Source: Nitratidesulfovibrio sp. (lineage in GTDB: Bacteria; Desulfobacterota; Desulfovibrionia; Desulfovibrionales; Desulfovibrionaceae). Taken from it: DNA of 64,000 nucleotides. Both the position numbers and the translations under genes were made by a program. The notes below the pieces were generated by a model. That model worked only from the letters and a program-made list of their open reading frames with translations, did no database searches and was not told the origin of the DNA. The DNA lies in assembly GCF_040373385.1 (NCBI RefSeq), contig NZ_JBDXXH010000001.1, positions 372,675 to 436,674 of the forward strand, read 5' to 3'. This document shows, in pieces, positions 23,552 to 37,950 of this stretch; the stretch's first letter is position 1, and the number at the start of each line of letters is the position of its first letter.

Positions 23552-23586
23552 GAAACAGGCAAGAATCAGGTAGAATTGCGTCTATC
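23552..23586 (+). promoter_or_regulatory. Regulon element, copy A (before the flavoprotein gene)
   Basis: Half-site 1 is CAGGCAAGAAT, followed directly by half-site 2 CAGGTAGAATT and then GCGTCTATC. It aligns without gaps to four other copies. The first gene starts 88 nt downstream at 23675. Confidence 0.7.
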
Positions 23587-23674
23587 CCTCTCACTGTTGC
23601 CGCCAGTAATTAGGGTGTCATCTGGCAATCGGGAGAATCCGTCCGATTGCCCCACCAACAGGGAGAGTATCGAC

Positions 23675-24316
23675 ATGAAGGCAGTAGCCATAAACGGAAG
23701 CCCCCGCCGGGGGGGCAACACGCAAATAATGCTTGAAAAGGTGCTTGAACAACTGCAGGTCGCCGGGTGGAGCACCGACTACATTCAGGTTGGCGGCAAA
23801 CCCGTCAGGGGCTGCATTGCCTGCTTCAAGTGTTTCGAAAATCGCGACAGGCGGTGCAGCATCGGCAAGGACGGCTTGAACGACCATCTGGAGCGGATAT
23901 ACTCGGCCGATGCCCTCATTCTCGGGTCTCCGACCTACTTCGCGGACGTCACCCCCGAACTGAAGGCCTTCATCGACCGGGTCGGGTTCGTGGGCCTGGC
24001 CAACGGCGGGCTGCTCAGCGGGAAGATCGGTGCCGCAGTGGTGGCGGTCAGGCGTGGTGGCGGAACCCATGTCTTCGACACAATCAACCACATGTTCCTG
24101 TTGTCTTCCATGGTCGTTCCCGGCTCTACCTACTGGAACCTCGGGGTCGGGCGCGACAGGGGGCAGGTGCTGGAAGACGCGGAGGGAATGCGGAACATGG
24201 AGCACCTGGGCAAGACCATCTGCTGGCTGGGCCAGGCCATCGCCTCGGCCCCGGCTCCATTCCCCGCGCCCCAGTACAGGCTGGATTTGGAGTCCGAGCC
24301 CCCCGTAGCCTCTTGA
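23675..24316 (+). CDS. Iron-sulfur flavoprotein / NADPH-dependent FMN reductase family
   Basis: A 213-aa protein that begins with the flavodoxin-like FMN site ([17 protein letters not shown]). [16 protein letters not shown] (about 49-64) is the compact Cys motif of iron-sulfur flavoproteins, and [19 protein letters not shown] is the second FMN loop. It should move electrons between a pyridine nucleotide or ferredoxin and small acceptors such as quinones or oxygen species. The ATG at 23675 follows CAGGGAGAG. A separate relative lies at 32766. Regulon element A lies upstream, element B downstream, so this gene is probably a single-gene unit. Confidence 0.82.
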
Positions 24317-24322
24317 ACAGGA

Positions 24323-24357
24323 GAATCAGGCAAGAATACGCTCGGATCATGTCTATC
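24323..24357 (+). promoter_or_regulatory. Regulon element, copy B (before the aldo/keto reductase operon)
   Basis: Half-site 1 CAGGCAAGAAT is perfect; half-site 2 (ACGCTCGGATC) is degenerate; ATGTCTATC follows. The next start codon is 83 nt downstream at 24441. The copy begins only 7 nt after the preceding stop. Confidence 0.7.
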
Positions 24358-24440
24358 CTCAGCGCCTGCCGTGGTTAGCTTTCACACGTGCGCTGCTTCA
24401 ACGCGCTGTCCGCCGAAAGGCCCGAACAAGGAGCAAGCAG

Positions 24441-25424
24441 ATGGAAAAGAGAATACTGGGAACGAACGGTCTGGAGGTCTCGGCTATCGGCCTTGGCTGC
24501 ATGGGCATGAGCCACGGCTATGGCCCGGCGGCTGACAGGCGCGAGATGATCGCGCTTATCCGCCGGGCCGTGGAGAAGGGTGTGACCTTCTTCGACACTG
24601 CGGAGGTATACGGGGATAACGAAAGCCTTGTGGGCGAGGCGCTGGCGTCCTTCAAGGGCAAGGTGGTCATCGCCAGCAAGTTCGGCGTGTACAACGTGGA
24701 TGGCAAGCAGACCCTGGACAGCAAGCCCGAGCGTATCCGGCAATCTGTGGAGGGCTCGCTGAAACGCCTGGGGGTGGAGGCCATCGACCTCTACTACCAA
24801 CACCGCGTGGATCCTGCCGTGCCCATTGAGGAAGTGGCCGACGTGGTGGGCGAATTGATGCGTCAGGGCAAGGTGAAGCACTGGGGCCTTTCCGAGGCCG
24901 GGGTGCAGACCATCCGTCGGGCACATGCCGTACTGCCGCTCACCGCCATTCAGAGCGAATACTCCATGATGTGGCGCCAGCCAGAGGCGACGTTACTGCC
25001 CGCTCTGGAGGAACTCGGCATCGGCTTCGTGCCCTTCAGTCCGCTGGGCAAGGGCTTTCTCGCGGGGCGCTTCGACAAGACCGCGACCTTTGGCGGCGAC
25101 GACTTCCGCAGCATCGTGCCCCGATTTTCTCCCGAGAACCTCGACGCCAACCAGGCGCTTGTCGCACTGGTGAAGTCCGTGGCGGCGGCCAAGCAGGCCA
25201 CCCCAGCGCAGGTCGCATTGGCCTGGGTGTTGGCTCAGAAGCCCTGGATCGTGCCCATCCCCGGCACCACCAAGATGGCCCGCGTGGAGGAGAACCAGGG
25301 AGGCGCGGACATCGTGCTGACCGAGAGCGATCTGCGTGAACTGAACGCCGCGCTGGCCAGGATTGAGATCGCCGGGGACCGCTATCCGGCGGACTCGGAC
25401 TTCGCCAAGCGTACTGGCAACTAA
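24441..25424 (+). CDS. Aldo/keto reductase (AKR13/YajO-like)
   Basis: A 327-aa cytoplasmic NADPH-dependent reductase. It shows the AKR barrel signature: [13 protein letters not shown] at the start, FFDTAEVYG with the catalytic Asp and Tyr (about 51-58), VVIASKFG with the catalytic Lys, and YYQHRVDP with the catalytic His. [16 protein letters not shown] is the cofactor-binding end. AKRs of this type reduce aldehydes and ketones. AAGGAG precedes the ATG. The SDR gene follows after 24 nt, and an MFS gene further on, so they probably form one transcript controlled by element B. Confidence 0.9.
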
Positions 25425-36256: not shown

Positions 36257-36259
36257 GCC

Positions 36260-37717
36260 ATGCTTAGGACCATACGAGTGATTCTGGCCACGCTGTGTCT
36301 TGCCGGAATATGCCTTCTGTTCGTTGATGTTAGCGGAGAGCTTTCACCTTCGCTTGCCGTGCTGGCCCGGATGCAACTTGTCCCGGCCTTGCTTGCTGGC
36401 AGCCTGGGGGTGGTGGCCGGACTGCTTGCCCTTACGCTGGTATTCGGACGCGTATACTGTTCCGTGCTCTGCCCGCTTGGAGTGTTGCAGGATGTCATTG
36501 CCGCGCGGGGCAAGAAATACCGCTTCAGGTACGCGCCCCCACGGACAGGGTTGCGGCTGTTTGTGTTGGGAACTTTCGTGCTGGCCCTGCTGGCTGGTGT
36601 GCCGCTGGTTTTCGCAATCCTTGAGCCATATAGCGCTTTCGGGCGCATCGCCACGGACCTTCTGGCCCCCATCTGGGCAACGGGCAGTAACGCGCTGGCC
36701 TGGGCTTCCGAGCGGGCAGGCAACTACGATGTGGCTCCCACCCCGGTATGGCAGAAGGGGATGGCCGCGCTGACGGCGGCAACCGCCACCCTCGCCGTCA
36801 TCGGGGTGCTTGCATGGCGCTTAGGGCGTACCTGGTGCAACACCCTATGCCCGGTGGGCACCGTTCTTGGCCTTTTGAGCCCCCTTGCCCTGATCAGGCC
36901 CCGCCTGGATATGGCGAAGTGCGCAAACTGCGGGCTGTGCGCCCGGAGATGCAAGGCCTCGTGCATCGATGCCACCTCGGGAACCATCGACGGCAGCCGT
37001 TGCGTCAGTTGCTTCAATTGTATTGGCGCATGCCGCCACTCGGCCATCAGCTATGTGCCGACACGGAGGAAGCCGACCGACAGGCCCACAAGGGCCACAC
37101 AGCCAGACCCCGTCCGCCGCAGCATGCTTGCGGCGGCGATCGGCCTTGCCGCGCCCGTTCCGGCTCTGGCCAGAAGCCGTGACAAGAGCGTCCCGGCCCT
37201 GGTCCGCAAGCAGGGGCCAGAACGCCAGACCCCCATAACCCCGCCGGGGTCGCGATCCCTGCGTGCCTTCTCGGCGCGGTGCACCGGGTGTCAGCTTTGC
37301 GTTTCCGCCTGTCCCAATCAGGTTCTGAAGGCTTTCGACATAGGCAGCGGCATGCTGCAACCCACTCTGGCCTTCGAACGCGGCTATTGCCGAGTGAATT
37401 GCGTGCAATGTTCGACCGTCTGCCCCACTGGGGCCATTCGTCCCATCAGTGCGGCAGAGAAGACGGCCACGCAGATTGGGCGGGCCGTGGTGAACCTTGA
37501 CCGGTGCATCGCGACCACGGACAAGGTGGCCTGCACGGCGTGCGCGCGGAACTGCCCGCCTCGGGCCATCACGCTCGTGGGGAAGGACGACGAACCCAAA
37601 AAGCCCGTGGTGGATGCCGAGCGGTGCAACGGTTGCGGCGCGTGTGAATACGTTTGCCCCGCCCGCCCCTTGGCCGCGATCCACGTGGAGGGCAACCTTG
37701 AACACAGGCGAATCTGA
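36260..37717 (+). CDS. NapH/NosR-like membrane iron-sulfur protein
   Basis: A 485-aa inner-membrane protein. Membrane helices (about 5-25, 40-65, 95-120 and 170-200) alternate with VYCSVLCPLGV and TWCNTLCPVGTV, the Cys-rich motifs of the NapH/NosR/CcoG family. The rest holds several ferredoxin-like clusters (CANCGLCARRC, CVSCFNCIGAC, CTGCQLCVSACP, CTACARNCP, CNGCGACEYVCP). It should pass electrons from the quinol pool towards periplasmic partners such as the adjacent AKR. A Tat-like segment (VRRSMLAAAIGLAAPVPALA) lies in the middle, as in fused NapG/NapH proteins, so this may be a natural fusion. It starts 3 nt after the AKR stop. Confidence 0.85.
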   Translation: MLRTIRVILATLCLAGICLLFVDVSGELSPSLAVLARMQLVPALLAGSLGVVAGLLALTLVFGRVYCSVLCPLGVLQDVIAARGKKYRFRYAPPRTGLRLFVLGTFVLALLAGVPLVFAILEPYSAFGRIATDLLAPIWATGSNALAWASERAGNYDVAPTPVWQKGMAALTAATATLAVIGVLAWRLGRTWCNTLCPVGTVLGLLSPLALIRPRLDMAKCANCGLCARRCKASCIDATSGTIDGSRCVSCFNCIGACRHSAISYVPTRRKPTDRPTRATQPDPVRRSMLAAAIGLAAPVPALARSRDKSVPALVRKQGPERQTPITPPGSRSLRAFSARCTGCQLCVSACPNQVLKAFDIGSGMLQPTLAFERGYCRVNCVQCSTVCPTGAIRPISAAEKTATQIGRAVVNLDRCIATTDKVACTACARNCPPRAITLVGKDDEPKKPVVDAERCNGCGACEYVCPARPLAAIHVEGNLEHRRI

Positions 37718-37748
37718 TTGATACTCCCGCAACGCATGACCCCCTGCT

Positions 37749-37781
37749 GGCCCCCGGATTCATCCATTAAGTCCGGGGGCC
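37749..37781 (+). terminator. Terminator-like hairpin after the NapH-like gene
   Basis: GGCCCCCGGA (37749-37758) pairs perfectly with TCCGGGGGCC (37772-37781). A short T-containing tail follows. It lies 31 nt after the stop. Confidence 0.6.
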
Positions 37782-37915
37782 TCGTGCGTCGGGCCGAAAG
37801 CACCGCCTTGCCGCCCGCGCCAGGGGTCGACCGCCGCCTGTTGTGGGCGAAGCAACAACTGTGACAGCGATGGCTGAAGAGGATGGGGAAAGACTTCCCT
37901 GGAGCCCGCAAGGGA

Positions 37916-37950
37916 GGATCAGGCAAGGAATAGGCAGGAACATGTCTACT
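37916..37950 (+). promoter_or_regulatory. Regulon element, copy E (before the DUF362 gene)
   Basis: Half-site 1 CAGGCAAGGAA, half-site 2 TAGGCAGGAAC, then ATGTCTACT. The next start is 70 nt downstream at 38021. Confidence 0.65.

Follow-up and report, generated by a model that had tools for sequence, protein, structure and literature searches.

A five-copy promoter element in a redox gene cluster of Nitratidesulfovibrio as a probable operator of AraC_N-type activators

Class-II activators of the AraC/XylS family, such as AraC at its I1-I2 sites and MarA and SoxS at their boxes, bind tandem direct sites about two helical turns apart that abut the -35 region. Here we analyse a 35-bp element that occurs five times around the gene for a regulator with an AraC_N domain in Nitratidesulfovibrio sp. 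(assembly GCF_040373385.1, contig NZ_JBDXXH010000001.1, positions 372,675 to 436,674), a stretch of 64,000 nucleotides hereafter called the window. Among the nearest described systems is YqhC of Escherichia coli, which is reported to activate yqhD (PMC5297802) and to have a single binding site by gSELEX, located in the yqhC-yqhD spacer (PMC8249747). For the ChIP-exo sites of YqhC, a common pattern is said to be given in supplementary material (PMC8464067), and an activator site is annotated in the yqhC spacer (PMC13052891), so that part of the E. coli site described below may already be published. GliR (PA3027) of Pseudomonas aeruginosa is another AraC-type activator, with a motif that overlaps the -35 (PMC8151288). 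For AraC_N regulators as a group, we recognised no paper on a shared operator motif, nor one that names the present element, in the literature, subscription papers not being covered.

The five copies lie within 14.4 kb of the window, all on the forward strand, and align without gaps. Fifteen of the 35 columns are identical in all five copies and a further 11 in four of the five. The original prediction had reported this alignment, a distance of 61-88 nt from each copy to a start codon, and an AraC_N regulator at 30582; re-checking the alignment and re-measuring the distances gave the same values, the gene units that it had named were borne out by Pfam and NCBIfam, and the reading frame at 30582-31574 carries both an AraC_N domain (PF06719, 194 bits) and an AraC-type helix-turn-helix (HTH) domain (HTH_18, 65.6 bits). 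The copies stand ahead of genes for aldo/keto reductases (AKR), short-chain dehydrogenases (SDR) and other proteins as follows.

23552..23586, forward strand: candidate operator copy 1, 88 nt ahead of an FMN-reductase-like flavoprotein (start 23675)
24323..24357, forward strand: candidate operator copy 2, 83 nt ahead of an AKR-SDR-MFS unit (start 24441)
28120..28154, forward strand: candidate operator copy 3, 61 nt ahead of an SDR-MBL hydrolase unit (start 28216)
31999..32033, forward strand: candidate operator copy 4, 65 nt ahead of a flavodoxin, FMN reductase, AKR-ferredoxin and NapH-like unit (start 32099)
37916..37950, forward strand: candidate operator copy 5, 70 nt ahead of a DUF362-cupin/CMD unit (start 38021)

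The five copies are real and lie far beyond chance. In five leave-one-out rounds, a matrix built from four copies gave the held-out fifth copy 24.9-46.6 bits, while the top non-copy position on both strands of the 64 kb reached 9.8-13.9 bits. Random sets of five window positions, drawn 200,000 times, had at most five identical columns, a control that is loose because the copies had been picked by eye. On sequence grounds, the copies are very probably class-II operator-promoters of an AraC_N activator of the YqhC type, and the operator is most likely one that is used by much of the YqhC-type family.

To search beyond the window, a sequence model (R1) derived solely from the five window copies was run on the whole genome, which comprises 4.2 Mb on 18 contigs and encodes three AraC_N regulators among 14 AraC-type HTH_18 matches. 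At E<=0.5 the model gave six matches, of which five are the window copies and the sixth lies next to the AraC_N gene on contig C4. The matrix, which was run on the window and selected loci only, added a seventh copy (25.8 bits) that adjoins the AraC_N gene on contig C13. All seven copies sit at AraC_N loci, and strong matches are not scattered over the genome, in line with the original prediction. A first sample of 59 genomes, including this one, contained AraC_N in 24; leaving out our genome, the model matched 12 of 23 AraC_N genomes at E<=0.01 and none of the 35 that lack AraC_N. Among 247 genomes of the family, matches at the same threshold were found in 43 of 142 with AraC_N and in one of 105 without (Fisher 4.6e-11; 8.4e-11 when our genome is excluded). 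The fixed matrix reached at least 15 bits in 17 of 28 AraC_N loci, while six column-permuted matrices did so in none each, and a gapped matrix with a variable linker reached at least 18 bits in 28 of 47 AraC_N loci versus none of 23 other AraC-family (HTH_18) loci (31 versus two at a threshold of at least 12 bits). AraC_N genes of Trichlorobacter, Desulforhopalus and an Ignavibacteria bin also have copies adjoining them or nearby, as do those on plasmids of Paracoccus, Sinorhizobium, Pararhizobium, Pantoea and Caballeronia. Outside the family, the element thus recurs at AraC_N genes in further members of the phylum, in the Ignavibacteria bin, in several Proteobacteria and, as described below, in E. 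coli. In genome G318, a copy is placed directly ahead of an AraC_N gene in the same direction (L216, 9595-10684, minus strand), which suggests autoregulation there.

The spacing from the element to the promoter is also largely preserved. Relative to the GGAT block of the E. coli copy, the mapped -10 of yqhD, CACAAT (PMC6115493), starts at an offset of 29 nt. Among 36 non-redundant copies from outside the window, the top -10-like hexamer is located at an offset of 28-30 nt in 25, compared with a mean of 3.5 and a maximum of 10 in shuffles. By eye, a TA-hexamer is present at this offset in all five window copies, as listed here with the offset from the respective GGAT block.

23607..23612, forward strand: candidate -10 TAATTA of copy 1, offset 30 nt, chosen by eye
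24376..24381, forward strand: candidate -10 TAGCTT of copy 2, offset 28 nt
28174..28179, forward strand: candidate -10 TAGTTT of copy 3, offset 29 nt
32053..32058, forward strand: candidate -10 TATATC of copy 4, offset 29 nt, chosen by eye
37970..37975, forward strand: candidate -10 TATCCT of copy 5, offset 29 nt, chosen by eye

The element had been described as a pair of tandem 11-bp half-sites. An 11-bp period is indeed present, but so is one of 21 bp, and in copy 24323 the 11-bp internal repeat is poor, with agreement at 3 of 11 bases. In a repeat-lag analysis of 35 non-window copies, 16 with a 3-nt linker and 19 with a 4-nt linker, the 21-bp lag had z-values of 4.5 and 2.8, respectively, and the 11-bp lag 2.1 and 3.0. 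We infer that the 21-bp repeat fits two monomers better than the 11-bp repeat does. The two monomers would lie side by side, each with two HTHs, and the 11-bp unit would correspond to the contact of one HTH. A regulator dimer would span two directly repeated monomer sites, GGATCAGGCAA.. and GGAT(C/T)..TCTAC, at a spacing of 21 bp and contact RNA polymerase at the -10 box predicted 28-30 nt further on. Both binding and activation would be performed by an AraC_N regulator, and the inducer would, by analogy with YqhC, be aldehydes or other electrophiles.

The yqhC-yqhD spacer of E. coli K-12 contains a related element. The window matrix scores 18.8 bits there (L041:4737), which is the top site in 9.5 kb, the next one scoring 10.4 bits. 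The two systems share an AraC_N regulator, a related promoter element and aldehyde/keto reductase targets, and the offset of the mapped yqhD -10 falls in the range seen for most copies outside the window. Mutation of a SoxS-like site was reportedly found by Lee in 2010 to abolish YqhC binding. In sequence and in its tandem arrangement over 35 bp, the element appears to depart from the SoxS consensus as commonly given, while the arrangement of tandem direct sites about two turns apart next to the -35 is that of the AraC/XylS class-II activators as these are generally described. The E. coli system differs in that gSELEX gave one target spacer for YqhC (PMC8249747), as against five units in the window and seven copies in the genome here, and in that flavodoxin, LarB/LarC and DUF362 genes are absent from the E. 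coli region examined. GliR is likewise an AraC-type activator with a motif that reaches the -35, but its reported consensus motifs, YYGGCGHTDTYSGMC and GGAYAWCGCCG, are unlike the present element (PMC8151288). At L041 ~4805-4835, downstream of the mapped yqhD -10, there is also a palindromic GGCAGATCGTTCTCTGCC stretch, which is probably the 24-bp palindrome named in PMC6115493.

Several results, given in this paragraph and the next, weigh against our interpretation. At E<=0.5 the model matched 30 of the 59 genomes in the first sample, including 12 of the 35 that lack AraC_N, where the matches are near chance level. In the family, 99 of the 142 AraC_N genomes had no match to the window-only model at E<=0.01, a strict search that favours copies with a 4-nt linker. 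One match (E 0.0095) was found in a genome that lacks AraC_N, G408, and it falls within the ~2.5 chance matches expected over 247 genomes, the E-values of the model being rough. Copies of at least 18 bits were missing from 19 of the 47 AraC_N loci and from 9 of the 14 plasmid AraC_N loci. The automated search placed a -10 at 28-30 nt in only two of the five window copies, the other three being the boxes picked by eye, and in the copies with a 4-nt linker, which is the form found in the window, the 11-bp lag is as strong as the 21-bp lag.

Which regulator reads the window copies is less certain. In trees of 67 AraC_N proteins, repeated with 74, the 30582 protein belongs to clade A, the C13 paralog to clade B, and YqhC together with the C4 paralog to clade C, all apart. 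The 30582 protein does not fall in the YqhC branch, from which it is separated by a branch with 100/100 support, and is not an ortholog of YqhC, with which it shares 32.5% identity (39.0% for the C4 paralog). The three paralogs of the genome are 29-42% identical to each other. The five copies are probably read by the 30582 protein, as judged from their position and from its relatives. We consider it unlikely, but not negligibly so, that the copies are mainly read by another AraC_N paralog, of clade B on C13 or of the YqhC type on C4, with the 30582 protein as a bystander. The window copies fit the clade-B matrix (34-44 bits) better than that of clade A (-1 to 23 bits), but the former takes in three copies from G034 that resemble those of the window. 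Of 27 loci that encode the closest regulators (51-71% identity), 23 have a best copy with a 3-nt linker, three have one with a 4-nt linker and one has no copy, and the 30582 gene itself has no copy directly ahead of it in the window. Furthermore, G248 (100% complete), where the sole AraC_N protein found belongs to clade B, has an adjoining copy that differs from window copy 28120 at a single base. In G007 (one contig, 99% complete), where the sole AraC_N protein found is of the YqhC type (clade C), a copy differs from the same window copy at two bases. Set against this, the five copies surround the 30582 gene, and its own relatives have copies of the window's form. For example, the sole AraC_N protein found in G348 (82% complete) is a 71% identical ortholog and the tree sister of the 30582 protein, and this genome contains copies with a 4-nt linker, one of which (39 bits) is located ahead of DUF362 genes. 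Copies with a 4-nt linker also adjoin the regulator genes in G318 and G301, which belong to the 30582 subclade (support 95/95).

The copies in G007 and G248, which lack a 30582 ortholog, contradict the expectation that the element is limited to relatives with such an ortholog and imply that it marks the AraC_N family rather than one regulator. The idea of a single regulon of the 30582 regulator holds in so far as an AraC_N-type operator precedes mostly redox units, but not as to its exclusiveness, as a near-identical element is found across three clades. Since the code is common to the three regulator clades, the C4 and C13 paralogs may also read the window copies.

It is improbable that the AraC_N protein acts as a repressor at sites that reach into the -35 region. 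In E. coli numbering, the copy does end within the -35 hexamer (columns 32-37), but YqhC is reported to activate yqhD via the yqhC-yqhD spacer (PMC5297802, PMC8249747), and the window -35 hexamers look weak by eye, in which they appear to resemble class-II activator sites. The presence of five copies in 14.4 kb on one strand would suit leftovers of promoter duplication or a dispersed repeat, with no regulator involved. This can hardly be upheld given that the flanks of the copies are unlike each other, that their downstream genes differ, and that other phyla have related copies next to AraC_N genes, at a largely fixed distance to the -10.

As class-II operators of AraC_N activators, the copies would switch on a programme of carbonyl reductases (AKR, SDR and iron-containing alcohol dehydrogenases, Fe-ADH) together with flavodoxins and FMN reductases. 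Among 39 proteins behind copies outside the window, a set in which some starts are uncertain and one copy is probably due to chance, Pfam identified five AKR, five SDR, five Fe-ADH, six Cupin_2, three FMN_red, three CMD and two MBL proteins. The 29 proteins behind the family-wide model matches include four DUF362, four AIRC/LarB, three MBL, three Flavodoxin_4, two SDR and two AKR proteins. None of these latter families was found when 23 proteins next to other AraC genes were examined. This control is weak, and it did include one Fe-ADH and one DJ-1 protein. Copies elsewhere are followed by homologs of the window MBL, SDR, MFS, flavodoxin, DUF362, CMD and AKR-ferredoxin proteins, and aldehyde or keto reductases stand behind copies both in the window (AKR, SDR and AKR-ferredoxin) and outside it (AKR, SDR and Fe-ADH). 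The targets had been described as redox genes, which is true of most, but they also comprise LarB/LarC, DUF362, MBL hydrolases, CMD/cupin proteins and a Bcr/CflA-type efflux gene. The genes of the window are:

23675..24316, forward strand: FMN_red / flavodoxin-like protein
24441..25424, forward strand: aldo/keto reductase
25449..26195, forward strand: short-chain dehydrogenase, 68.5% identical to an element-led protein in G034
26143..27612, forward strand: Bcr/CflA-family MFS efflux transporter, with homologs (73% in G389, 82% in G223) that are also element-led
28216..29061, forward strand: short-chain dehydrogenase
29119..30267, forward strand: MBL-fold hydrolase, with an 89% homolog that is the first gene after the element in G007
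30582..31574, forward strand: AraC_N regulator of clade A, the likely but not sole possible reader of the five copies
32099..32737, forward strand: flavodoxin (Flavodoxin_4)
32565..33302, forward strand: FMN reductase (extent of the open reading frame)
34478..36256, forward strand: aldo/keto reductase with a ferredoxin domain
36260..37717, forward strand: NapH/NapG/NapF-like polyferredoxin protein, below curated NCBIfam cut-offs
38021..38989, forward strand: DUF362 protein with a predicted LarA-like fold, possibly exported by twin-arginine translocation (Tat)
38993..40285, forward strand: cupin/CMD protein

The true start of the FMN reductase is probably later than 32565, as its open reading frame overlaps the flavodoxin gene. 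An alpha/beta-hydrolase-like gene (33574-34481) is apparently split into open reading frames in overlapping frames (33574-34179 and 34116-34481), which both match a single reading frame of 340 amino acids in L086 (13090-14112); this appears to be a frameshift or a sequencing error. The left flank (686-23463) carries phage- or mobile-element-type genes, including a CI/S24 repressor (686), CobT-VWA (17489), Fic (19159), DUF3150 (20003) and an ERF recombinase (22678), and the redox cluster starts directly after it. No match to the 30582 protein of more than 45% identity at E<=1e-60 was found in the seven congeners sampled. Because of the adjoining mobile-type genes and the lack of a close match in these congeners, the redox cluster may have been acquired.

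LarB functions in the synthesis of the nickel-pincer (NPN) cofactor and was found behind the element in 20 genomes. In 12 of these 20, no LarA domain was detected at E<1e-15. In our own genome, a YqhC-type copy is followed by genes for AKR-ferredoxin, LarC and LarB (L012, G000:C4:478000-495000, at 7929-11900). A nadC gene is located 3 kb past this operon on the opposite strand (L012 15129-16052, minus); NadC belongs to the synthesis of nicotinate nucleotides, a stage that precedes the NPN precursor. Within one genus (g161), the LarB and DUF362 genes are divergent and each has its own copy of the element (L188, L201 and L205), and at L196, where the two genes are also divergent, the DUF362 gene is in two pieces.

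The DUF362 protein at 38021 may itself be a nickel-pincer enzyme, given its predicted LarA-like fold and matching residues. The Foldseek TM-scores of this fold are only 0.35-0.46. Residues H174, K184 and H201 are invariant in 14 of 14 DUF362 rows and pair with H174, K184 and H200 of LarA, by a weak match only (E 0.23-0.26). Pfam detected DUF362 and a Tat signal (21.0 bits, under the cut-off of 22.7) but no Lar_N match at E<=0.001, while a relative, L193, reaches Lar_N with E 6.5e-4, under the cut-off. DUF362 differs from the LarA superfamily, with its LarB-LarE-LarC system, in being ~100 residues shorter and without a Lar_N match. PMC11770544, which names both families, takes DUF362, a member of that same Pfam clan (CL0471), as an outgroup. 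We recognised no paper on an NPN role for DUF362 in the literature, again with subscription papers not covered. In the family, the predicted programme would join NPN synthesis (LarC, LarB) with DUF362 proteins as users. We therefore put forward, as a tentative proposal that may well prove wrong in part, that a shared AraC_N operator code, maintained across phyla by descent or transfer, switches on in this family NPN synthesis together with DUF362 proteins as a hitherto unrecognised class of Tat-exported, NPN-dependent oxidoreductases against reactive carbonyls.

With such an operator code to read, the regulons of these widespread stress activators would become predictable from sequence in many genomes. 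Three regulator clades, with paralogs that are only 29-42% identical, keep a near-identical operator, so that insulation between the paralogs must come from elsewhere. If the proposal for the cofactor is true, DUF362 would gain a role as a nickel-pincer enzyme, which would explain the 12 genomes with element-led LarB in which no LarA domain was found.

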